Notes under the pieces: generated by a model | The model's input: the letters and a program-made list of their open reading frames with translations, nothing else | Told to the model about the DNA's origin: nothing | Databases searched by the model: none | Part shown: one piece after another, positions 52,337 to 63,533 of the stretch | Layout: every line of letters begins with the position of its first letter | How positions within the stretch are numbered: position 1 is the first letter of the stretch | Program-made: the position numbers and the translations under genes | From: Ancylobacter polymorphus | Lineage (GTDB): Bacteria > Pseudomonadota > Alphaproteobacteria > Rhizobiales > Xanthobacteraceae | Assembly: GCF_022836935.1 (NCBI RefSeq) | Contig: NZ_CP083239.1 | Span: 868,001 to 932,000, forward strand | Length of the DNA: 64,000 nt | Direction of reading: 5' to 3'

Positions 52337-52483
52337 CAGCGGCGCTCCACGAAAGGCGGGCGGCGCGGGGCCCGGCGCCATCGGCAGCAGGAAGCCGGGC
52401 GGAGGAACCGCCACGTCGCCCCTTCTTCCCGCGAAAGGCCGGCGGGGTCCACCCCGCATCTGAGAGCTCTCGCCCGCAACCGC

Positions 52484-53548
52484 TCAGCGGCCCAAGGGCG
52501 CCATGCGCGCGAGATAGCCCGCGACGATGCCGGGAATGCGCCAGGGCTCCCGCCACAGCCCCCACCCCTCTGCCCCGACCGCCGTGCGCAATGCCCGGCG
52601 CGTATAGTGCCAGCGGGGATGGCGGGTGAAGCGCTCCAGCATCTCCAGCTGAGCGGGGTCGGCGGGCAGCGGGCTGGGGAGGCCGAAATACCGCTCGGTC
52701 ACGGTCAGCAGGCGCTGGGCCGGCCGTTCCCAGCCCGCCGCGACCGCACGCTCGACAAAGGCGGGGGGTAACGTCCCGCCGAAATCGTCATGGATGCGGA
52801 CGACGAACTCCAGCGCCTTCATCAGCGGCACGGTGCTGACGCGCAGGAGGTGGTCCTGCGGCCGGGTGCATTGGGCGAAAGCGTTCAGCAGCCGCCCCAG
52901 CGGATCGAGCCGGCCGATCCGCAGCCCGTCCCAGTCCAGCCATTCCACCGCCTGCGCCGCCTCTTCGGGCGGCAGCAGGGCGCTCTGGTCGGGGTCGAGA
53001 ACGGTGCGGTGCAGCTCGATCCGCGCCATTTCGTCGGGGTGGAAATAGGGCGGGTAATGCGCCCCCTCCTTCCACTCATGCCCCTCCGCGTCATAGCCGA
53101 GCCCCCGCAGCACCGCGCCTGCGGTCCGCTGCGCCGCCGCCTCCGGCAGCCAGAGGTCGAGGTCCGACATCTGCCGGCCGGCGGCGGGCCCCGCGGGCGG
53201 CAGCAGGGTGAGCGCCCCCTTGAGCCAGACCGGTGCGATGCCGGCGGCGTTGAGGGCGGCGCTCACGGCCCGCATCTGCCGGCGCAGGCCCTCATTGCGC
53301 TCGGTGTTCCAGTCCGCCACCGCCGCCAGAATATCCGCGAGTTCGGCGTCGACGCGATCGCCCAGTCCATGACGGGCGAGCGCGACGGACAGGGCCGGGA
53401 TCAGCCGGTGCCGGTCGGCCTGGGCGAGCACCGCCGTCCAGGGCGCGTCGGCCGCGGCGGCGGTCCGCAGCGCCGCGCGGCTGGAAAAGGGCGACACCAG
53501 CGCGCAGAGCAGGCGCAGTCCGTCGAGCGAGGCGTTCCGGCGCGGCAT
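52484..53548 (-). CDS. Nucleotidyltransferase family protein (NTP_transf_5 type)
   Basis: 354-residue protein of the uncharacterised nucleotidyltransferase family often written NTP_transf_5. The core reads PVWLKGALTLLPPAG followed by GRQMSDLDLWLPEAA, where the two aspartates in DLD would bind metal; later comes RIELHRTVLD. The ATG was chosen for its GAGG site; the frame is open another 42 codons. It is divergent from three small peptide genes and an HPr-kinase-like gene. Relatives of this family occur in lasso-peptide clusters with HPr-like kinases, so it may modify the peptides with a nucleotide-derived group. Confidence 0.75.
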   Translation of the reverse strand: MPRRNASLDGLRLLCALVSPFSSRAALRTAAAADAPWTAVLAQADRHRLIPALSVALARHGLGDRVDAELADILAAVADWNTERNEGLRRQMRAVSAALNAAGIAPVWLKGALTLLPPAGPAAGRQMSDLDLWLPEAAAQRTAGAVLRGLGYDAEGHEWKEGAHYPPYFHPDEMARIELHRTVLDPDQSALLPPEEAAQAVEWLDWDGLRIGRLDPLGRLLNAFAQCTRPQDHLLRVSTVPLMKALEFVVRIHDDFGGTLPPAFVERAVAAGWERPAQRLLTVTERYFGLPSPLPADPAQLEMLERFTRHPRWHYTRRALRTAVGAEGWGLWREPWRIPGIVAGYLARMAPLGR

Positions 53549-53724
53549 GGGGTCCTCGAAAGTAGCGCCCGCGGCGCCGTTGAAACGCCGCGCAAGCCCC
53601 AGGCTGAAGGGCAGGCACGCGCCCAAGGGTGCATTTCGCGCTGGTGCCATAAGACCATCAAAGATATCCTGCAACTCAGCTGGCGTTATTGTCGCCTTTC
53701 ACGCCTTTCGATGCGAGCCGATGC

Positions 53725-53880
53725 ATGGCCCAAACCCCTTCGCTCCCCGAGCCGGAGAAGACCGCGCCCACCGATGAGCGCCGCCGCGCGGCGTTGCGCC
53801 GGCTCGGCCGTGGCGCGGCCTATTCCCTGCCCGCCACCCTGGCCATCATGACCATCAACCGGGCCGCCGCCGCCAGTTGA
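53725..53880 (+). CDS. Small peptide 1 of a three-member tandem family
   Basis: 51 residues: an 18-residue acidic/Pro-rich N-terminus, then a 33-residue module that aligns without gaps to the two following peptides (RRRAALxxLG, an aromatic at module position 15, PATL, Met, RAA, C-terminal Ser). No Cys. The ribosome binding site is weak and a start 12 codons earlier is possible. It begins 176 bases from the divergent nucleotidyltransferase gene. It may be a substrate for modification at the terminal Ser by the kinase-like protein downstream; alternatively the RR motif with short hydrophobic stretch is a cargo-free Tat-like signal. Confidence 0.72.
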   Translation: MAQTPSLPEPEKTAPTDERRRAALRRLGRGAAYSLPATLAIMTINRAAAAS

Positions 53881-53951
53881 CGGAGCAGCCCGCGCGGTGC
53901 ATTTTTACCTCTGACCATTTTGGCTTCGGCTCCGCGAGTCAGGGAACAGGC

Positions 53952-54128
53952 ATGGCGACGGATCGTTCATCGGAAAGCGAGCAGCAATCGCCCGCCGTGT
54001 CCGCTGCGCCGTCGGGTGCCGATGCGCGCCGGCGCGCCGCGCTGGCGAAGCTGGGCCGTGGCGCCGCCTTTGCCGTTCCCGCCACGCTCGGCCTGATGAT
54101 GATGCCGCGCGCCGCCCGCGCGAGCTGA
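53952..54128 (+). CDS. Small peptide 2 of a three-member tandem family
   Basis: 58 residues: a 25-residue Ser/Gln/Glu-rich N-terminus, then the same 33-residue module (RRRAALAKLGRGAAF, PATLGLM, RAARAS). The aromatic position is Phe where the other two have Tyr. AGGGA lies about eight bases before the ATG; a longer frame upstream has no such site. Separated from peptide 1 by 71 bases with no other reading frame. The C-terminal residue is again Ser. Confidence 0.75.
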   Translation: MATDRSSESEQQSPAVSAAPSGADARRRAALAKLGRGAAFAVPATLGLMMMPRAARAS

Positions 54129-54238
54129 CGCCGGTCTCACCGCCTCGCATCTGTGGGGCAAGCTCTGACCACCCATCGACAATGACACGCCGCACCACCG
54201 GCTGGCCCTGCAGGGCTGCCGATGGGCCGGAGACCCAA

Positions 54239-54397
54239 ATGTCCACCGAAAACACCCCCCGCCCGAGTGACAAGGCCCCGGAACCGACCGATGAGCGGCG
54301 CCGCGCCGCGCTGCGCAAACTCGGCAAGGCGGCGACCTATGCCGCGCCGGCGACGCTGAGCCTCATGGCGATCCGCCGCGCCGCCGCCGACAGCTAG
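54239..54397 (+). CDS. Small peptide 3 of a three-member tandem family
   Basis: 52 residues: a 19-residue Pro/Asp/Thr-rich N-terminus, then the 33-residue module (RRRAALRKLGKAATY, PATLSLM, RAAADS). GGAG seven bases upstream supports the ATG. It is closest to peptide 1: both have PTDERRR before the module. The kinase-like gene starts 199 bases downstream; the gap contains a GCTGGCG/CGCCAGC hairpin but no T-run, so read-through is possible. Confidence 0.75.
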   Translation: MSTENTPRPSDKAPEPTDERRRAALRKLGKAATYAAPATLSLMAIRRAAADS

Positions 54398-54596
54398 AGC
54401 CATGCCCGCAAAGGCTGCTGGCGGTTTGCGCCAGCAATTGCCTGACATCCGTGCGTTTGCGCAGGTCTGGCGACGTTGAGGTCAACGGGCCTGCTCGCGA
54501 CAACAGCTTCACCCCCGGAACTGTCGGGCAAGGCCCCGGCCGGCGCGCGCCGCCCGCGCAGCGCACGTCCCGCTTCGAACTGGCGACGCTCCCCCC

Positions 54597-55853
54597 ATGA
54601 TCCCTTCCGCCGAACCGCGTTTCTATTTCCGTGTGCTCGACGACGTGCTCTTCGTCTTCGACCAGCACCTCGAAATGGCGCACGCGTTGAATGCGCCGGC
54701 CGCGCGGCTGTTCCTCGCGCTTTCCGACAGCTTCCGGCCGGTCGCTGCCCTCGGCGCGGAGGCGGCGGTGGATGGCGCCGATGATCTCGCGGCCTGCTTC
54801 GGCGCCTGGGAGGACCTCGGCTGGATCGAGCGCGATACGGCCGGCCAGGTGCGGCTGCGGCCCTCCCAAAGGGATGCTGCGCCCGCCGGACCCCTCGCGC
54901 CCAAGGCGGAGAGCCGCCCGGCCGTTCTGCTGCAACAGTTCCAGGTCCGGCTGGCGGGCACCTCGGTGGCGCTGCGCCTGCTCGCCACCGGGCGCCGGGG
55001 CGGGGAGGCGACGCCTCCCGCCTGCCTTGCCGTACGCCTCGCCACGGGCGAAAGGCTGATGGGGTTCTTCAGCGGCTTTCTCGATCCCGATCCCGCCCAT
55101 CACCTGCCGCTCGCCACGCTCGATGTCATTGTCGAGGAAGAGGGCTTCACCCTGCGCTGCGTCAGCGGCGGGGCGATCACCCGCCAGCTCTTCACCGAGG
55201 AGGCATCGCAGGCCGTCGGCAAGTCGCATCTCTGGCTGCTCGATCTCGTCTATCGCGACCCGCCGCCCGCCATCTTCGTTCATGCCGCCGTGCTGTCCAC
55301 CGCCGATGGCGCGCTGATGATGGCGGGGGTCTCCGGCGCGGGAAAGAGCACGCTGTCGGCCTATCTCGTGGCGCAGGGCTGGCGTTTCGGCACGGACGAT
55401 TCCCCGGCCATCGCCTTTTCCGGCGGCGAGGCGGTGGTGCTGCCCTGCCCGGGGGCGATCAGTCTCAAGCCCGGCAGCCTTGAGGCGCTGGCGCCGTTTT
55501 ATCCCGGCCTCAAGGAGCGGCCGCGCATCGGCAGCGGCGAAAAGCGCGGCTGCTATCTGCCGGTGCCGCTGGAGCGGCACATGCCGCCGCACGGCCCGGA
55601 AAACCGCCTCGCCTGCCTCGTCTTTCCCCGCTTCGCAGCGGGATCGTCGACGGAGGTCGAACCGATCGGGCCGGCACGCGCGCTGCTGGAGCTGATGGAT
55701 GCCGAATTCGGCCTCGCCGAGCCTGCCGGCGCCGCCGAACTCGACGCCTTTTTCGACGCGCTGGAGCGCCTGCCGCGCTACGCCGTCACCTATAGCGACC
55801 TGGCGGACATGGAAGCCGTGCTGCGCCGGCTGCTGGCCGGCGCGCCGGCCTGA
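54597..55853 (+). CDS. PqqD-like domain fused to HPr-kinase-like domain
   Basis: 418-residue protein. Residues about 8-82 fit the PqqD/RRE pattern (DVLFVFD, HALNAPAARLFLALSDSFRP, then FGAWEDLGWIERD); such domains bind precursor peptides for modifying enzymes. Residues about 95-410 resemble HPr kinase C-terminal domains: Walker A G244-V-S-G-A-G-K250-S251, followed by FGTDDSPA with D267 and D268. There is no HPr gene here. HPr-kinase-like proteins of lasso-peptide clusters phosphorylate the C-terminal Ser of the peptide; all three peptides upstream end in Ser. A peptide kinase is thus the favoured role. The start has no strong ribosome binding site. Confidence 0.8.
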   Translation: MIPSAEPRFYFRVLDDVLFVFDQHLEMAHALNAPAARLFLALSDSFRPVAALGAEAAVDGADDLAACFGAWEDLGWIERDTAGQVRLRPSQRDAAPAGPLAPKAESRPAVLLQQFQVRLAGTSVALRLLATGRRGGEATPPACLAVRLATGERLMGFFSGFLDPDPAHHLPLATLDVIVEEEGFTLRCVSGGAITRQLFTEEASQAVGKSHLWLLDLVYRDPPPAIFVHAAVLSTADGALMMAGVSGAGKSTLSAYLVAQGWRFGTDDSPAIAFSGGEAVVLPCPGAISLKPGSLEALAPFYPGLKERPRIGSGEKRGCYLPVPLERHMPPHGPENRLACLVFPRFAAGSSTEVEPIGPARALLELMDAEFGLAEPAGAAELDAFFDALERLPRYAVTYSDLADMEAVLRRLLAGAPA

Positions 55854-56672: not shown

Positions 56673-57539
56673 TCAGCGCTTCCTCGGCTGGACGACGACG
56701 GTGGCGGTCAGGCCCGCCACCAGCCGCACCTCCGGCGGTACCGGGCCGAGCTTGATCCGCACCGGAATGCGCTGGGCGAGGCGGATCCAGTCGAAATTCG
56801 GGTCCACCTGCGCCAGCAGCCCCTGGCCGGGATTGGCGATGGCGCGGCTCAGCCCCTCCACCTCGCCGTCGATCACCACGCCGCCGGCCATCAGCTCCAC
56901 CCGCGCGGGGTCGCCGTCGCGGATGGAGGGCAGCTTGGTTTCCATGAAATAGGCGTAGACATAGAAGGAATGGCTGTCGACCAGCGCCAGTATGGCCTCG
57001 CCGACCCGGGCATAATCGCCGGCATCGACGTTGAAATTGGTGATGTAGCCATCGGTCGGGGCGCGCACGCGCGAGCGCTCCAGATTGATCTGCGCCATGG
57101 TCAGCGCCGCCTCAGCGGCGTCGAGCTCGGCCTGCGCCTCGGCGGCGGTGGCGGCGGTGAGTTCGACCGTCTGCGCCGAGATGGCGTCGGCATCGGCGCG
57201 CTCCAGATTAGCGTCGCGCCGGGCGGTATCGCCGGCATAGCGCAGCGCCTGCTGCTTCAGTTCCACATCCGCCTGCGCCTGCCGCAGCGCGGCGGTGAAG
57301 CGCTGCTGGTCGATGACGAACAGGATCTCGCCCTTCCGGACGAACTGGTTGTCGCGGACATTGACGGAATCGACGAGGCCGGAGACATCGGGCGCGATCG
57401 CCACCACCTGCGCCAGCACCCGCGCGTCGCGGGTCCAGGGCGCGACCGTGTAGTAGAGCCACAGCCGCCAGCCGACGAAAACCGCCGCCGCGGTCGCCAG
57501 CAGGGTGACGCCCACGCGCAGGGCGGAGCCCATCTTCAT
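56673..57539 (-). CDS. Periplasmic adaptor subunit (HlyD/AaeA-type)
   Basis: Membrane fusion protein of 288 residues: one N-terminal anchor helix (ALRVGVTLLATAAAVFVGWRL), a lipoyl half-motif (VVAIAPDVSGLVDSVNVRDN), a coiled-coil hairpin (about 85-140) and the second half (RVRAPTDGYITNFNVDAGD). It pairs with the DUF1656 and FUSC proteins upstream, as AaeA does with AaeX and AaeB. Start overlaps the stop of the DUF1656 gene. Confidence 0.92.
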   Translation of the reverse strand: MKMGSALRVGVTLLATAAAVFVGWRLWLYYTVAPWTRDARVLAQVVAIAPDVSGLVDSVNVRDNQFVRKGEILFVIDQQRFTAALRQAQADVELKQQALRYAGDTARRDANLERADADAISAQTVELTAATAAEAQAELDAAEAALTMAQINLERSRVRAPTDGYITNFNVDAGDYARVGEAILALVDSHSFYVYAYFMETKLPSIRDGDPARVELMAGGVVIDGEVEGLSRAIANPGQGLLAQVDPNFDWIRLAQRIPVRIKLGPVPPEVRLVAGLTATVVVQPRKR

Positions 57540-57769
57540 CGCAGAACCTCCAGCAACGACGGCAGCAGCAGAATGAACATGCCGAACAGGATGATGTAGA
57601 GCGCCGCGTCGAACAGCGGCCGGTGCCAGACGAAGCGGTAGAACCCCGCCCGCGCCAGACCCCAGCGCAGCAGCAGGTACGGCGCCAGCGCGACGGCCGC
57701 CCAGATCAGCACCGGCGGGAAATAGATGCCGAACGCCTCGGGGGTGAAGAAGGGCCAGGCGGTGTGCAT
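57536..57769 (-). CDS. DUF1656 small membrane protein (AaeX-like)
   Basis: 77-residue inner-membrane protein with two hydrophobic helices (LIWAAVALAPYLLLRWGLA and AALYIILFGMFILLLPSLL) and the conserved N-terminal FGIYFPPVLIWA. DUF1656 proteins accompany FUSC-type efflux systems. The ATG with GGAGG seven bases upstream was preferred over an in-frame start inside the FUSC gene. Confidence 0.9.
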   Translation of the reverse strand: MHTAWPFFTPEAFGIYFPPVLIWAAVALAPYLLLRWGLARAGFYRFVWHRPLFDAALYIILFGMFILLLPSLLEVLR

Positions 57770-57770
57770 C

Positions 57771-59951
57771 TCAGCCCTCCCCGAAAGCATGCAGCAGATA
57801 GGCGCGGTCGATCTCGAAACGGTCGACGATGAAGCGCAGCGACGCCCCGGCGCGCAGGTTCAGCCCCGCCGCCTTCGAGCCGGCCGGCAGAGCGAGCCCG
57901 GCCAGCCCCGCCAGCGTCTCACGCGCCAGCGCCTCCGCCGCCGCCACATGCGCCGGCAGCGCGCTCCCCGCCTCGGGAAAGCCCGCCAGTTGCGCGGCGA
58001 AGCGGTCGAGGAAGAGCGCGACCCGCGCGCGCGTTTCCTCCGCCAGTTCCGGCGCGCCCAGCAGCCGACGCAGGCGGCCGAGCTCCAGCGCGGTCGAGGC
58101 CGCGCCCAGCGTGCCGCGCAGATACTCGTCCTCCCCCGGCCGGGCGAGGGCGAGGCGCGGCAGCAGATCGGCCAGTGCGCCGACGATCTCGCGCAGGATC
58201 GCCCGCTCGTGCCGCTCGCCGCGCGCCGCCTCCGGCAGGCGGGTGCCGAGCGTCGTGTTCCACAGCTGCCGGCGCGAGGCGCGCGAGGTGACGGGAAACA
58301 GCTTCAGCAGCACCAGCGCCATCCCCATGCCGAACAGGGTGGAGAGGGCGGCGTTGAGGAAGCCCGCCTCGTCCGGGCGGAACACATTGCCGGTGCCGAG
58401 CTCGGCGACGAAATAGGCGCCGAAGGCCGTGCCCGCCAAGGCGAGCGCCGGCGTTCCCGCCATCAGCCCGGCCGGGAACAGCGCCACCATGAGGAACAGC
58501 GCCAGCGCGTCGAACCCCTCGATGCGCGGCAACACGAACACCATGGCGCCATAGGCCGCCACCATGCCGAGCCCGGCACAGATCAGGAAGGACAGGCCGA
58601 GCGCCCCCGGCCGGTCCTGGTTGACGGCGAAGAACAGCAGCACGGCGAGGCCGGCGGCGGCGCTGAAGCCGCTGGTCCATTCCGTCGCCGCCCAGAAGCC
58701 GCACATCGCCAGCAAGAGCAGCCCCGCGCGCAGCCCGGCGAGCCGCGCCTCCCGGCGCTGCGCCGGCGCCATCACCGGCGGCGGGCGCGCGGCCTTGGGC
58801 GCCGCCAGCGTCGCGAGGCCGCGCAGGGCCAGGGGGCCGGTGGGGCGCAGGCTCGCCGCCTGGCTCACCATCACCATGGAAAGCCCGTGCAGCAGGTCGC
58901 CGGCGCGTCGCAGGATCAGCACGCCATTGGCCAGCGGCAGGAACGGCACCTGTCCGGCCATCGCCTCCAGCTCGGCGCCGGCGGCATTGAGCGCGACACG
59001 CGCGGCCAGCAGCTGCGCGCGCACGCGCTTTGTGTCGGCGAAAGCGGCAGGGTCGGCCGCCAGCCGCTCCAGCAGCGCCGCCACATCCGCCATGGCCGGG
59101 CGCAGCCGGTCGGCCACCGGCCCCGCCCCTTCCACCGCGAATTCGTCGAGCCGCAGATACAGCCCGCGCGCCACCGCCAGCACGCGCAGGAATTCGCGCG
59201 TCATCCGCCGCAGGCCGGCATCGTTGGCGCGCATTTCCGGCGCCTCGAACAGGGTGTAGGAGCGCAGCGCGTCGAACTTCACCACCGCTTCCACCATCTC
59301 GCGGCGCAGCGGCGCGAAGGCGGTTATGGGCGTGACCGGCTGCAGCGCCACCGCACCATAATGGCACAGCCGGCCGAACAGCACCGCCAGCTGGCCGCGC
59401 AGCACGTCGCCGGCATAGACCGGAAACACCAGCACGCTCATCGCCGTGACGAAGACAATGCCGAGGATGATTTCCGCCGTGCGGTCGACGGCGAGGTGCC
59501 AGGCTTGCGCCGGCGCGGAGGCCCCTTCCAGCCCCACCAGCAGCGCGGTGTAGCCGGCGAGCAGGAAGCTGTAGGAGGTGAAGTTGCGCGAGAGCCCCGC
59601 CTGGGTGAAGCAGAAGCCGAGCCACAGCGCGAGCGAACCGACCAGCGGCAGCGGTGCCTGCGACCACAGCGCGAGAATCAGCAGCCCCGCCGCCGCGCCC
59701 AGCAGCGTGCCGGCGACGCGGAAGGCGCCCTTGGCCACGGCGGCGCCGGCGGTGGGCTGGGCGAGGAGATAGACGGTGAGCGCCGCCCATTGCGGGTCGT
59801 CGAGCTGAAGCCAATAGGCGGCGCCCAGCGCCATCACCGCCGCGGCGGCGGTGCGCAGCGAAAACACGATGTTGCGCCAGCCGAGATCCACCGGCACGGC
59901 GGCGCGCAGCCATGTCCACACATCCGGAAAGGCGGTGCCGGCAGGGGTCAT
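57771..59951 (-). CDS. FUSC-family efflux transporter (AaeB-like)
   Basis: 726-residue inner-membrane protein of the aromatic acid exporter family. Two blocks of about five or six helices each (about 30-180 and 370-520) separated by soluble helical regions, as in AaeB/YccS. Typical start: WRNIVFSLRTAAAAVMALGA and DDPQWAALTVYLLAQPTAGA. The ATG with GGAG four bases upstream was chosen. It heads the efflux operon; likely substrates are aromatic carboxylic acids, by analogy with AaeAB only. Confidence 0.9.
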   Translation of the reverse strand: MTPAGTAFPDVWTWLRAAVPVDLGWRNIVFSLRTAAAAVMALGAAYWLQLDDPQWAALTVYLLAQPTAGAAVAKGAFRVAGTLLGAAAGLLILALWSQAPLPLVGSLALWLGFCFTQAGLSRNFTSYSFLLAGYTALLVGLEGASAPAQAWHLAVDRTAEIILGIVFVTAMSVLVFPVYAGDVLRGQLAVLFGRLCHYGAVALQPVTPITAFAPLRREMVEAVVKFDALRSYTLFEAPEMRANDAGLRRMTREFLRVLAVARGLYLRLDEFAVEGAGPVADRLRPAMADVAALLERLAADPAAFADTKRVRAQLLAARVALNAAGAELEAMAGQVPFLPLANGVLILRRAGDLLHGLSMVMVSQAASLRPTGPLALRGLATLAAPKAARPPPVMAPAQRREARLAGLRAGLLLLAMCGFWAATEWTSGFSAAAGLAVLLFFAVNQDRPGALGLSFLICAGLGMVAAYGAMVFVLPRIEGFDALALFLMVALFPAGLMAGTPALALAGTAFGAYFVAELGTGNVFRPDEAGFLNAALSTLFGMGMALVLLKLFPVTSRASRRQLWNTTLGTRLPEAARGERHERAILREIVGALADLLPRLALARPGEDEYLRGTLGAASTALELGRLRRLLGAPELAEETRARVALFLDRFAAQLAGFPEAGSALPAHVAAAEALARETLAGLAGLALPAGSKAAGLNLRAGASLRFIVDRFEIDRAYLLHAFGEG

Positions 59952-60053
59952 GGCGCTCCAACGCATCAAGGGCAACACCGGCGGGCCGGCGCGGGACGCG
60001 CCCGAAAGCGCGGCGACCCTAGCAACATGCCGCCCGGAGGCGCAATGGCGGGC

Positions 60054-61043
60054 TCACCACACCAGCGCGGCCGTGCGCACCGGCGCACACCACAGCGCGA
60101 ATTCGGCCGGGGTAAGCAGCGCCAGCGTCAGCGAGAGCCCCGCCATGTCGAGCGAGGTGACGAAGGTGCCGACCAGCGCCCGCACGGGGACGAGGCCCCG
60201 CTCGCCCAGCACGGCACGGGCGAGCGCATGGGCGCGGTTGAGCTCGATCGGCGGCGTGCCGCCAAAGCCGTTGACGATCAGCAGCGGGTGCGCCTCGGCG
60301 AGCGGGGGAAGCTGCGCCAGCACCGGCTCGCACAGCAGGCGCACGATCTCTTCCGCCCCGGCGCGGCGGGTGCGGTAGAGCCCCGGTTCGCCATGAATGC
60401 CGACGCCGATCTCCATCTCGTCCGGCCCGAGGGCGAAGGTGTCGCGCGCCGTGTCCGGCAGCGACACCCCGCGCAAGGCGACGCCCATGCTGCGCAGCCG
60501 CCCCGACAGCCCGTCGCCAAGCGCCTTGAGGGTGGCAAGATCGTCCCCACGCTCGGCCGCCGCGCCGAGAATCTTCTCCACCACCACCGTGCCGGCCACG
60601 CCGCGCCGGCCCCGGCTGCGCACGGAAGGCCCGGTGGCGGCGTCGTCCTCGACGATCACCGTCTCCACATGATGGCGCCCGGCGGCCATCTCCGCCGCCA
60701 TCTCGAAATTCATCACGTCGCCATCATAGTTCTTCACCACCAGCAGGCAGCCGGCGCCGCCATCGGTCTCGTCCATGGCGGCGAGAATCTGGTCGGGCGT
60801 CGGCGAGGTGAAGACATGGCCGGTGCAGGCGGCATCCAGCATGCCGGCGCCGATGAAGCCACAATGCAGCGGCTCATGCCCGGCCCCGCCGCCGGATATC
60901 ACCGCCACCTTGCCGGGCGTGAGCCGACGGCGGCGCACGAACTTGGCGTCACGGCCGAAGGCGACGAGGTCCTCATGCGCGGCGACGAAGCCGGCGAGGC
61001 TGTCCGCCACCAGCGTCTGTGCCGTGCCGGGACGCCGCGTCAT
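60054..61043 (-). CDS. dhaK: Dihydroxyacetone kinase subunit DhaK
   Basis: 329-residue substrate-binding subunit of PTS-dependent dihydroxyacetone kinase. It has SGGGAGHEPLHCGFIGAGML, KNYDGDVMNFEMAAEMA, and GIHGEPG with H217, which forms the hemiaminal bond with dihydroxyacetone. Transcribed after EI and the small HTH-like gene, with a gap of 108 bases. The presence of DhaL and DhaM in the same operon shows that phosphate comes from phosphoenolpyruvate through EI, HPr and DhaM rather than ATP directly. Confidence 0.93.
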   Translation of the reverse strand: MTRRPGTAQTLVADSLAGFVAAHEDLVAFGRDAKFVRRRRLTPGKVAVISGGGAGHEPLHCGFIGAGMLDAACTGHVFTSPTPDQILAAMDETDGGAGCLLVVKNYDGDVMNFEMAAEMAAGRHHVETVIVEDDAATGPSVRSRGRRGVAGTVVVEKILGAAAERGDDLATLKALGDGLSGRLRSMGVALRGVSLPDTARDTFALGPDEMEIGVGIHGEPGLYRTRRAGAEEIVRLLCEPVLAQLPPLAEAHPLLIVNGFGGTPPIELNRAHALARAVLGERGLVPVRALVGTFVTSLDMAGLSLTLALLTPAEFALWCAPVRTAALVW

Positions 61044-61151
61044 CGCGCCCTCGCCCCTTCCGGCGCGCCATGTGCCGCCTGTGCCGCCCGCTGCCGCACC
61101 GGCTTAGCCCGCCCGCTGCGGGCCGGGCGCGCGGCCCGTCCTCGCCTGCAT

Positions 61152-61562
61152 TCACTCGCTCCCATTCACCAGCACCGCCATCTTAGCCACGAAGTCGGCG
61201 ACGGCATCGTCGAAGCTGCGATTCTTCCGGTCATCGCCGAAATCCGGCACCATCAGCGCCAGCGTTCGCATGGAGGAGCCGCCGCCCACATCCGGCAACC
61301 GGCCGGGATGGGCGGCCTGATAGGCGGCAAGGAAGCGCTCCTGCTCCGCCGGGCTGAAATGGCACACCCTCAGGATGGTCGGCAGGTGCCGGGCGGGCAA
61401 GGGCGTGTCATAGGCCGGGCTGGTCACCTGGGTGACGAAGCTGCGGTGCTTGCCCAGCGCCGCCGCCAGACGCTGGCGCGTGCCGGAGGGCCGGTTGTCG
61501 AGAATGCCGGACAAGAGGGTCTTGTAGGCGATCACCGCCTCGTCGCTGGTCTCGCGCGCCAT
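61152..61562 (-). CDS. Small HTH-like protein of the dihydroxyacetone operon
   Basis: 136-residue cytoplasmic protein not matched to a named family. The N-terminal part (TSDEAVIAYKTLLSGILDN, RQRLAAALGKHRSFVTQV, LPARHLPTILRVCHFS) looks like a Cro/phage-repressor-type helix-turn-helix. A short linker and a C-terminal helix (SFDDAVADFVAKMAVLVN) follow. It starts two bases after the enzyme I stop, so it is firmly in the operon, and may regulate it in response to PTS state. No phosphorylation domain is seen. Confidence 0.7.
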   Translation of the reverse strand: MARETSDEAVIAYKTLLSGILDNRPSGTRQRLAAALGKHRSFVTQVTSPAYDTPLPARHLPTILRVCHFSPAEQERFLAAYQAAHPGRLPDVGGGSSMRTLALMVPDFGDDRKNRSFDDAVADFVAKMAVLVNGSE

Positions 61563-61564
61563 GG

Positions 61565-63199
61565 CTAGCCCCGCCCCGGCGGGGAATTGGGCGCGGCGCC
61601 CGCCAGCGCCGCGCGCACCGCCTCGATCTGGCCGGGCGGCACGGAAAGCCCGTCGAAGCCCAGCGCCCGCAGTCGGCCGGCGGCTTCGGGACGGGCCGCG
61701 AGATCGCCGCACAGCGACACCGGCCGGCCCAGCGCCCGGCCGCTTGCGCAGATATGGTCCAGCAACCGGAACATCGCCGTTTCCGCTCCCGCACAGAGCG
61801 GCGCCACCGCCGGATTGTCGCGCGCCGCCGCTGCGAGATACTGCATCAGGTCATTGGTGCCCACGGAAAAGAACGCCGCCTGCGGGAACAGGTCCAGCGT
61901 CAGCGCCGCAGCCGGCACCTCCACCATGATGCCGAGCGGCGGCAGGCGGGCCTCCACCCCCTGCCGCGTCAGCCGGGCGGCTTCCTCCTCGAACAGGAGC
62001 ACCATCGCCGCGAGCTCCTCCGGCGCCGTTACCATGGGCAGCAGCACGGAGAGCGGGCCAAAGGCCGCCGCCCGCAGCAGCGCCCGCGCCTGAATGCGGG
62101 CGAGATCGGGATGCGCGAGCAGGAAGCGCACCCCGCGCAGGCCGAGCACGGCGGCGGGGTCGCCTTCGGCAAGGCCGGGAAGCGCCTTGTCGCCGCCGAG
62201 ATCGAGCAGGCGCAGCGTCACCGGCTTGCCGCCGAGCGGCTCAAGGAGGCGGCGATAGAGGGCGAGATGCCGCTCCTCGCTCAGCGCCTCGGCGGCATGG
62301 GTGAAGAGGAACTCGGTCCGCACCAGCCCGACCCCGTCCACGCGCGCAGGATCGAGCCCGTCGAGATCGGCCAGCGTGTCGATGGTGGCGAACAGGCCGG
62401 GCCGTCCGGCAGCGGGGGCAAGGGATGCCGGGGACGCGGGAGCGCTTTCCGGCGACGGGGCGGGGGCCGCCGCCATCTCCCCGCCGTCGGGGTGGAGGCA
62501 GGCAAGGCCGCGCGTGCCGTCCACCAGCAGCGGATCGCCCGCATTCCCCGGCACGGCGCCGAGGCCGACCACCATCGGCACGCCGCGCGCCCGGGCCAGC
62601 AGGGCGACATGGCTCGCCGCGCTGCCGGCGCCCAGCGCGATGGCGCCGCCCTGGGACCAGTCATGGGCGAGGAAGACGCTCGGCGGCATGTCGCGCCCGA
62701 CATAGACCGACCCCGAGGGGAAGTCGGCGCGGGTTCGGCCGGCGAGCGCGTCGAGCACGCGGTGCTGCAGGTCCATCAGGTCGGCGGCGCGCAGGGCGAA
62801 GGGATCGGGTTCGGCCGCATCGGCCTGCCTGTCGGTCTCACTGGCGGTCTCATCGGCCTCACCGGTCACCTCGTCGATCCGCTCATTCATCGCTGCGGCA
62901 AAGGCCAAGGCCGCGCCTTCGCCGCGTTCGATGCGGGCCAGGGCGGGCGCGAGCAGCTCGCCATCGAGCAGGAGTTCGATCTGGAAATCGAGGATTCCCG
63001 CGCTTTCGGCATCGGCTTCGGCGGCGAGCGCGCGCAATTCGGCAATGGCGCGCGCCACCGCCGCCGCCAGCGCCGCGCGCGGCTCGCCCGCGCTTCCGGC
63101 CAGCCCGGCGGCCTCCGCCAGCTCGCCGGCGCGGTACAGCGGGCCAACCGCCCGGCCGGGCGAAGCGGGCTGGCCGCGCTGCTCACACCGGGCGGCCAT
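61565..63199 (-). CDS. PTS enzyme I (phosphoenolpyruvate-protein phosphotransferase)
   Basis: 544-residue enzyme I that passes phosphate from phosphoenolpyruvate to HPr. Phospho-His197 lies in SAASHVALLARARGVPMVV; the PEP-binding barrel has VGLVRTEFLF, the Arg in LGLRGVRFLL, and the catalytic Cys in VSLCGDLAA. Slightly shorter than typical EI (about 575). The segment VTGEADETASETDRQADAAE is an acidic insertion. The start overlaps the HPr stop by 17 bases. In E. coli-type DhaM these modules are fused to the EIIA domain; here they are separate genes. Confidence 0.92.
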   Translation of the reverse strand: MAARCEQRGQPASPGRAVGPLYRAGELAEAAGLAGSAGEPRAALAAAVARAIAELRALAAEADAESAGILDFQIELLLDGELLAPALARIERGEGAALAFAAAMNERIDEVTGEADETASETDRQADAAEPDPFALRAADLMDLQHRVLDALAGRTRADFPSGSVYVGRDMPPSVFLAHDWSQGGAIALGAGSAASHVALLARARGVPMVVGLGAVPGNAGDPLLVDGTRGLACLHPDGGEMAAAPAPSPESAPASPASLAPAAGRPGLFATIDTLADLDGLDPARVDGVGLVRTEFLFTHAAEALSEERHLALYRRLLEPLGGKPVTLRLLDLGGDKALPGLAEGDPAAVLGLRGVRFLLAHPDLARIQARALLRAAAFGPLSVLLPMVTAPEELAAMVLLFEEEAARLTRQGVEARLPPLGIMVEVPAAALTLDLFPQAAFFSVGTNDLMQYLAAAARDNPAVAPLCAGAETAMFRLLDHICASGRALGRPVSLCGDLAARPEAAGRLRALGFDGLSVPPGQIEAVRAALAGAAPNSPPGRG

Positions 63200-63533
63200 C
63201 GGCGCGCCCGGGCTTGCGGTCCTCGTCGAAATTGCGCCGCACCAGCTCGCTCAGCGCTGCCACCGCCTCCTGCGCCCGCGCCCCTTCGGCGCGAATTCTC
63301 ATTCTGGTTCCGCGTCTTATGCGGGCGCCGATGATCTTGACGATGCTCTTGCCATTCAGCCAGTCGGCCGATCCGTCGAGCGCCACTTCCACCGTGCAGG
63401 GAAAGCTCTTGGCCAGTCGGGTGAAGGCGACGGAGGGCCGGGCGTGCAGACCGACGCCGTGCGTGACCTCGACCTCGGCCTGGCAGCGATGGGCGGAAGG
63501 CCGCCCGATAAGGGGGAGAGGTTCGGCCATCAC
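63183..63533 (-). CDS. HPr-like phosphocarrier protein
   Basis: 116-residue HPr-family protein. Phospho-His30 in GVGLHARPSVAFTRLA and the regulatory-Ser region GKSIVKIIGARIRRGTRM are both present. An N-terminal extension of about 18 residues and a basic tail (RRNFDEDRKPGRADGRPV) exceed normal HPr (about 88). It overlaps dhaM upstream and EI downstream, so it is dedicated to the dihydroxyacetone kinase relay. Confidence 0.92.
   Translation of the reverse strand: MMAEPLPLIGRPSAHRCQAEVEVTHGVGLHARPSVAFTRLAKSFPCTVEVALDGSADWLNGKSIVKIIGARIRRGTRMRIRAEGARAQEAVAALSELVRRNFDEDRKPGRADGRPV

Follow-up and report, generated by a model that had tools for sequence, protein, structure and literature searches.

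A candidate cassette for modifying a single serine of short peptides in Ancylobacter

The window analysed here is a stretch of 64,000 nucleotides of an Ancylobacter genome (contig NZ_CP083239.1, positions 868,001 to 932,000 of the forward strand), and it holds a compact cassette of five genes (Table 1). A nucleotidyltransferase-like gene of the NTP_transf_5 family is divergent from three genes for short paralogous peptides, and these are followed by a gene joining an HprK-like kinase to a domain that resembles PqqD and the recognition element (RRE) of ribosomally synthesized and post-translationally modified peptides (RiPPs). A preliminary description, drawn from the letters alone, had proposed this layout, and all five genes are confirmed at their places. 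Established at the level of sequence are the cassette itself, the co-distribution of its genes within the genus, a leader motif, a Ser or Cys at a fixed position and complete kinase and nucleotidyltransferase motifs; together they suggest a RiPP-type system in which the kinase would phosphorylate a single serine at the end of the peptide.

Table 1 Features of the cassette, numbered from the first letter of the window
Feature	Position	Strand	Remarks
NTP_transf_5 nucleotidyltransferase-like gene	52484..53548	-	354 codons from ATG 53548; PF14907
Predicted active site Lys-Gly ... Asp-x-Asp	53156..53221	-	K, G, D, D identical in 16/16 aligned proteins
Precursor peptide A	53725..53880	+	51 codons; C-terminus ...RAAAAS
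YSLP, predicted RRE-binding motif, peptide A	53821..53832	+	Ser51 is 15 residues past its Pro
Precursor peptide B	53952..54128	+	58 codons; C-terminus ...RAARAS
FAVP, YxxP counterpart in peptide B	54069..54080	+	Ser58 is 15 residues past its Pro
Precursor peptide C	54239..54397	+	52 codons; C-terminus ...RAAADS
YAAP, predicted RRE-binding motif, peptide C	54338..54349	+	Ser52 is 15 residues past its Pro
RRE/PqqD-like and HprK-like kinase fusion	54597..55853	+	418 residues
RRE/PqqD-like domain	54597..54866	+	residues 1-90; modelled on its own with three strands and three helices, pLDDT (predicted local distance difference test) 87.6
Kinase motif H229-G244-G247-G249-K250-S251-D267-D268	55281..55400	+	alignment, 20 sequences

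The C-terminal half of the fusion protein matches TIGR04352 (HprK_rel_A) with an E-value of 1.5e-23, at 83.3 bits against a cut-off of 200, and a sequence search of the PDB returns only weak P-loop, HprK and phosphoenolpyruvate (PEP) carboxykinase matches. In an alignment of 20 sequences, H229, G244, G247, G249, K250, S251 and D268 are invariant and D267 is nearly so. The spacing of this motif is identical to that of BsfK, the kinase of the bsf lasso cluster of Bradymonas, for which the accessible part of the source gives H148-G163-G166-G168-K169-S170-D186-D187 (PMC10368454). The family PF27840.1 is precomputed for 11 of 28 kinase relatives (P0007, P0011, P0012, P0015-P0018, P0024, P0025, P0027, P0028), and the Pfam search does not report it for the window kinase.

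The PqqD-like part is weak by sequence: its NCBIfam E-value is 0.08, the Pfam search reports no such domain in the window protein, and the fusion scores 13.9 bits with TIGR04353, under the cut-off of 35. Among relatives of the same architecture, PF05402 (PqqD) is precomputed for P0019-P0022 and lies over its cut-off at two loci (L070 and L079). An AlphaFold2 model of the whole fusion reaches a pLDDT of 89, and Foldseek matches it to PEP carboxykinases and HPr kinases. Because these matches cover the kinase part only, the N-terminal piece was modelled separately. The top-ranking PDB entry for this piece is the leader-bound lasso RRE TbiB1, at an E-value of only 0.024 and a template-modelling score of 0.58-0.60, with many winged-helix proteins next in rank. 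In this model the N-terminal 90 residues are likely to adopt an RRE-like fold.

The divergent gene matches PF14907 (NTP_transf_5) over the cut-off, with an E-value of 6e-28. Its longest open reading frame (ORF) opens at TTG 53674 (52484-53674, minus strand); ATG 53548 is more likely the true start, because relatives align from about that point and a GAGG stands upstream of this ATG. The Lys-Gly and Asp-x-Asp residues are presumably the active site, a role that we assume from the nucleotidyltransferase fold class.

The peptides are best understood by comparing 27 intact sequences of the window type, 26 from six Ancylobacter genomes and one from another genome of the same taxonomic family (G098). 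Start codons were picked by hand, and three changed peptides of A. polymorphus and a G098 frame that runs on without the end motif (L069:7878-8243) were left out. All 27 carry a pair of arginines, share an L-G and have the leader Pro, with a Tyr three residues before this Pro in 25 of them (Phe in window peptide B and Cys in one other). The residue 15 positions after the Pro is Ser in 21 peptides and Cys in six. It is the very last residue in 22, and one to three residues follow it in the other five. The terminal Ser that the preliminary description proposed as the target is a conserved feature, present in all three window peptides; as a general rule the proposal must be loosened to admit the six Cys copies and the five short extensions. 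The C-terminal halves are conserved as protein. For the core, the ratio of nonsynonymous to synonymous changes per site (pN/pS) is 0.00-0.63 in 16 between-genome pairs that exclude A. polymorphus, and at most 0.46 in 14 of these. The N-terminal part is under weaker constraint, its pN/pS being mostly higher, with exceptions in peptide A. No Pfam or NCBIfam name exceeds its cut-off for the peptides or for the larger leader family described below, and the leader yields weak matches to TIGR04117, the best with 23.3 bits of a cut-off of 50.

Peptides and kinase have the same distribution in the Ancylobacter genomes compared. A full-length kinase (E < 1e-140) occurs in 7 of 30 genomes, and peptide matches occur in exactly these seven (29 in total, three to six per genome, all adjoining the kinase), with none in the other 23 (Fisher p 5e-7, relatedness ignored). 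Because they lie beside the kinase in all seven genomes and are missing from the rest, these small ORFs are more than chance. This bears out conservation next to the kinase, one of the points on which the preliminary description had staked its interpretation. An orthologue of the nucleotidyltransferase accompanies the kinase in six of the seven. Among the 23, G153 has a different pair of HprK-like and NTP_transf_5 genes (L213:4746-6937) near proteins that are, on reading, Thr/Asn-rich.

When the locus is compared with six relatives, all of them have similar DNA flanking the cassette on the side of the nucleotidyltransferase. The alignment ends close to the kinase end in A. aquaticus, 501b, A. 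rudongensis and A. vacuolatus; in IITR112 and A. polymorphus it continues past the kinase as far as the compared DNA extends. The compared genome of A. polymorphus (G022, L063:4441-6509) shows a natural loss. About 390 bases stand in place of window positions 52337-53783, leaving 65 codons of the nucleotidyltransferase, and every peptide lacks one conserved feature: peptide A has no start, in peptide B the acceptor Ser is replaced by Arg, and in peptide C the Tyr of the motif is replaced by Asn. Its kinase frame is open, with a pN/pS of 0.28 against the window. From few changes that mix two lineages, the whole-gene pN/pS of its peptides against the window is 1.11 for C and 0.81 for B, compared with 0.18-0.82 in the 16 intact between-genome pairs, and their core values are 0.70 and 0.71, compared with 0.00-0.63.

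The closest described relative in design is the family of Linear Polyphosphorylated Peptides (LPP) of Bacillota, known to us from the accessible portions of PMC13381572. According to these, LPP clusters encode an RRE, an HprK-like kinase, an NTP (nucleoside triphosphate) transferase, a SipW-like peptidase and an exporter, are restricted to Bacillota, and often lie in capsular polysaccharide loci (PMC13381572). One to three precursors per cluster, of 35-200 residues, have a conserved N-terminal leader and variable C-termini. In the motif YxxPxVLxHQxIxFETxxS, the final Ser (core S3) is phosphorylated up to several times, and its change to Ala abolishes the modification (PMC13381572). Lasso-type RREs bind a [Y/W]xxP leader motif, which the [Y/F]xxP of the window peptides resembles. 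By letter count, the distance from Pro to Ser in the published LPP motif is 15, as in the window peptides. The cassette resembles LPP in its HprK-like kinase with complete motif, its NTP transferase, the lack of a cyclase among the neighbours searched, and a YxxP leader with Ser 15 past the Pro (with Phe for Tyr in window B); the putative RRE at the start of the fusion may be a further parallel. It differs in that the HQxIxFET part of the consensus is missing and the leader is otherwise dissimilar, the core is nearly absent, some acceptors are Cys, and the RRE-like domain is fused to the kinase whereas that of LPP is a discrete protein. LPP clusters further encode LppS, a signal peptidase of the archaeal type, together with an exporter resembling MsbA. 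Neither was found in the cassette; no MsbA-like exporter is present among the 12 neighbouring proteins searched, the rest of the genome not having been searched for one. Searched genome-wide at E 0.001, a profile of SipW/LppS-type signal peptidases (TIGR02228) finds nothing, while 8 of 14 control genomes match. Judged by sequence, the cassette would work like LPP yet is not a member of that group, because its RRE-like domain is fused and no SipW-type peptidase is found in the genome. The idea of a stripped-down system modifying the peptide terminus, put forward in the preliminary description, is largely supported, with LPP in place of lasso peptides such as paeninodin as the closest system among the sources in the parts available.

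Lasso systems offer further points of comparison. In the bsf cluster, the kinase phosphorylates Ser3 of BsfA, close behind the leader, and works faster in the presence of the RRE protein; the leader reads YxxPxL, with 16 residues from Pro(-14) to Ser3, in the text available (PMC10368454). Unlike the window cassette with its distance of 15, that cluster has a lasso cyclase, a B2 peptidase, a transporter and a discrete RRE. Paeninodin and pseudomycoidin carry a lasso ring and require a leader peptidase and a cyclase among their genes, which sets them apart from the present peptides; in the part of PMC9266682 consulted, an HprK-like kinase acts on their C-terminal Ser, and PsmN, an NTP transferase homologue, is linked to the addition of a hexose to phospho-Ser of pseudomycoidin. 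The preliminary description also mentioned an uncharacterised system of HprK-related kinases with PqqD-like partners. A system of this kind is HPr-rel-A of NCBIfam, comprising a TIGR04352 kinase and a TIGR04353 'PqqD family peptide chaperone'. TIGR04352 is indeed the best NCBIfam match of the window kinase and the partner is PqqD-like by name, but both scores fall far under their cut-offs and the domains are fused instead of separate. No mention of these names was found in the literature searched. A fused RRE-HprK cassette in Alphaproteobacteria likewise appears in none of the literature matches listed, which is no proof of absence, as subscription journals and preprints lay outside the search.

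The cassette does not stand alone. Among 149 genomes of the taxonomic family, the kinase profile matches in 25 and NTP_transf_5 in 34, and small proteins with a related leader occur in 12 of 40 regions examined (peptide profile, E up to 0.06; the regions include lasso-type and other loci). Further leader proteins at family loci are weaker or were spotted by eye, and none was found at L080. Their tails are Gly-rich, Thr-rich, Pro-rich (L071) or collagen-like (L079). At L071:3749-4927 the Pro-rich protein lies beside a 2-oxoglutarate-Fe(II) oxygenase (PF13640), suggesting hydroxylation of the tail. At L074:4841-10292 an ORF of 1154 residues combines a glycosyltransferase match with a weak FkbM-type match and a weak HprK-like match (PF07475, E 0.008, under the cut-off), and a Thr-rich leader-type protein is encoded upstream of it.

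Across 385 genomes of the class, the leader profile matches 16, NTP_transf_5 matches 77, and the kinase profile matches 126, mostly weakly. NTP_transf_5 is present in 13 of the 16 leader-positive genomes (missing from G285, G478 and G540) and in 64 of the 369 others. Since the leader profile was built from loci of the taxonomic family, most of them close to kinases, only genomes outside the family are independent; without the two family members the count is 11 of 14 (p 2e-6, relatedness ignored). In 7 of the 16 (the window's own genome, G187, G258, G357, G519, G540 and G553) a leader lies within about 3 kb of a kinase or NTP_transf_5 match, and scattered copies occur in G024, G250 and, three times, in G553.

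Of 20 sequences gathered for the main sub-family (RRxFL..CGKF...TPP), 18 have a Ser 18 residues past the last Pro, the exceptions being L228, where it comes one residue earlier, and L072, where Thr replaces it. Two L075 near-copies of L078 and a third G024 match without RR were left out of these 20, as were sequences of the YxxP type or other types, namely L071 (Ser 15 past Pro), L079 (Thr 15 past Pro), four from L092 (no Ser at 15), and L077, L074, L089, L091, G187, G250, G368, G388, G465, G478 and G553_C50; positions in the left-out sequences were read by eye. At E 0.001 or better, at least 2275 clusters carry a related leader. Among the best 120 of these, none has a Pfam domain, and Ser stands 18 past the Pro in 117 of 117 distinct relatives, with a variable residue before it and Gly after it in 104; best-scoring relatives favour conservation. 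A profile comparison gives a probability of 83 percent for the match between window-type and TPP-type leaders, and kinship between the two is likely. By these comparisons, the window cassette seems to be an extreme form, without tails, of a far larger family of proteins that carry such a leader. There is also a third leader type, RRRALAKLGLA..YAAPV, with short tails containing Cys and Pro (L227, L230, L231, L219) and mostly no Ser at the usual distance; it adjoins HprK-like matches in G187, lies about 20 kb from one on the same contig in G388 and G478, and has none near it in G553_C50.

Based on the above data, we propose, with a probability of about 0.68, that the locus encodes a RiPP-type cassette. 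The RRE/PqqD-like domain of the fusion would hold the [Y/F]xxP leader of the three short peptides, and the attached kinase domain would phosphorylate the Ser that ends each of them, 15 positions past the leader Pro. The NTP_transf_5 enzyme would then probably extend this phosphate with another group, which may be a sugar. Such a system may operate in the manner of LPP, with the RRE fused, a cassette that includes neither leader peptidase nor exporter, and a core reduced to little beyond the acceptor. We infer leader binding, phosphorylation, the order of the two steps and the nature of the second group from the features described, and any export or purpose of the product is viewed in the same light.

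Several observations weigh against this proposal. The RRE assignment is below threshold by sequence, and its structural match is weak amid winged-helix proteins. The Cys copies at the acceptor site are unexplained, and a product is hard to picture when most peptides stop at the acceptor and have almost no core. In the accessible parts of the two sources, the LPP kinase is inactive on Thr or Tyr at the acceptor (PMC13381572), and BsfK accepted Thr and not Tyr (PMC10368454). Deletion of lppN had no visible effect (PMC13381572), and for this reason the second step, assigned to NTP_transf_5, is weak. In the larger family the Ser sits 18 rather than 15 residues past the Pro, the leader proteins of G187, G250, G368, G388, G465 and G478 fit neither spacing on reading, and G285 has a leader protein and neither enzyme. 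Finally, the evidence on selection from A. polymorphus is weak, and the leader resembles a twin-arginine translocation (Tat) signal too.

This last resemblance underlies the most serious rival, in which the peptides would be signal peptides of the Tat type or exported micro-proteins, with RR-x-x-L as the export signal and A-x-A as the cleavage site, and the enzymes would act on other substrates. The invariant RR, found in 27 of 27 window-type peptides and in 117 of 117 members of the larger family, in which the pair is followed, one residue on, by F and L, fits such a signal, as does the A-x-A that many peptides have just ahead of the Ser. However, cleavage of window-type peptides there would leave only one or two residues, and the small-residue pattern drifts off register (at position 13 past the Pro, 15 of the 27 peptides have Ala and 12 have Arg), whereas Ser or Cys keeps its register in all 27. 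This difference in register weakens signal-peptidase cleavage as the cause of the conserved C-terminus. Export alone also leaves the co-distribution with the kinase unexplained. We regard this explanation on its own as improbable; Tat export and peptide modification are compatible, and both may be true.

Still less probable is a remnant of a lasso cluster that lost its cyclase and peptidase, with the peptides as decayed precursors. Kinase, nucleotidyltransferase and RRE are indeed the tailoring genes of paeninodin-type clusters, and the same genome holds a single B2-type peptidase domain (PF13471; L237, C1:27722-28051) about 890 kb from the cassette. Yet none of the 27 peptides has space for a lasso core, since the leader motif lies 15 residues before the acceptor and no more than three residues come after the acceptor; the cassette with its tandem copies is retained in six genomes, and the same kind of leader proteins occurs at related kinase loci of the family. 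In agreement with the preliminary description, which had noted no lasso cyclase, protease or radical-SAM (S-adenosylmethionine) gene, none of the 12 neighbouring proteins searched (45.6-63.5 kb) is a lasso (macrolactam) cyclase, a leader peptidase of the B2 or another type, a radical-SAM enzyme or an ABC transporter, the cyclase not having been sought genome-wide. A lasso cluster at this locus is rejected for want of core room and of a cyclase or peptidase among these neighbours; the PF13471 domain at L237 may mark one elsewhere in the genome. Lastly, that the enzyme is an HPr(Ser) kinase for the HPr encoded at 63183-63533 (PF00381, E 4e-20), with the peptides unrelated, is hardly credible and is rejected on scores and distance: the HprK fold would allow it, but TIGR00679 (HPr(Ser) kinase/phosphatase) scores 15.5 bits under a cut-off of 240, the HPr gene lies 7 kb off beside genes for a PEP-utilising enzyme and Dak1, and the peptides share the distribution of the kinase.

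The cassette is flanked by genes for a CitMHS-type transporter and a GntR regulator. Beyond it, window positions 56673-63533 contain efflux-type genes (HlyD, DUF1656 and FUSC), followed on the minus strand by Dak1, the PEP-utilising enzyme and the HPr of the phosphotransferase system. The same genome has a second pair of PqqD-like (93 residues) and HprK-like genes at about 3.557 Mb (L235:6740-10009), followed by two proteins that by eye resemble phage tail collars; the search for NTP_transf_5 gave no match there.

A broader interpretation can be offered tentatively, and we consider it possible rather than probable. The widespread alphaproteobacterial leader (RR-x-x-L ... P with its fixed Ser) might be a signal for tagging a single Ser. 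Fused RRE-kinases and NTP_transf_5 enzymes would use it to attach a group through phosphate to thousands of small proteins rich in Gly, Thr or Pro, not all of them encoded near the enzymes, and the tagging might be linked with Tat export and attachment to polysaccharide. The window would then represent a reduced form, in which the peptide is merely signal and acceptor. If the proposed mechanism holds, the pathway of linear phosphopeptides, which a 2026 paper restricts to Bacillota (Nat Commun; PMC13381572, in the portions available), would extend to Pseudomonadota in an even simpler form. It would also provide a very small test system, in which a single enzyme brings its own leader-reader and the substrate is a peptide of about 50 residues that ends in the conserved acceptor. 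The group that NTP_transf_5 enzymes attach to phospho-serine, and the function of the products, would become open to experiment. What A. polymorphus has lost hints that the peptides are of little use without the nucleotidyltransferase, and the larger leader family would be a sizeable uncharted pool of candidate substrates.

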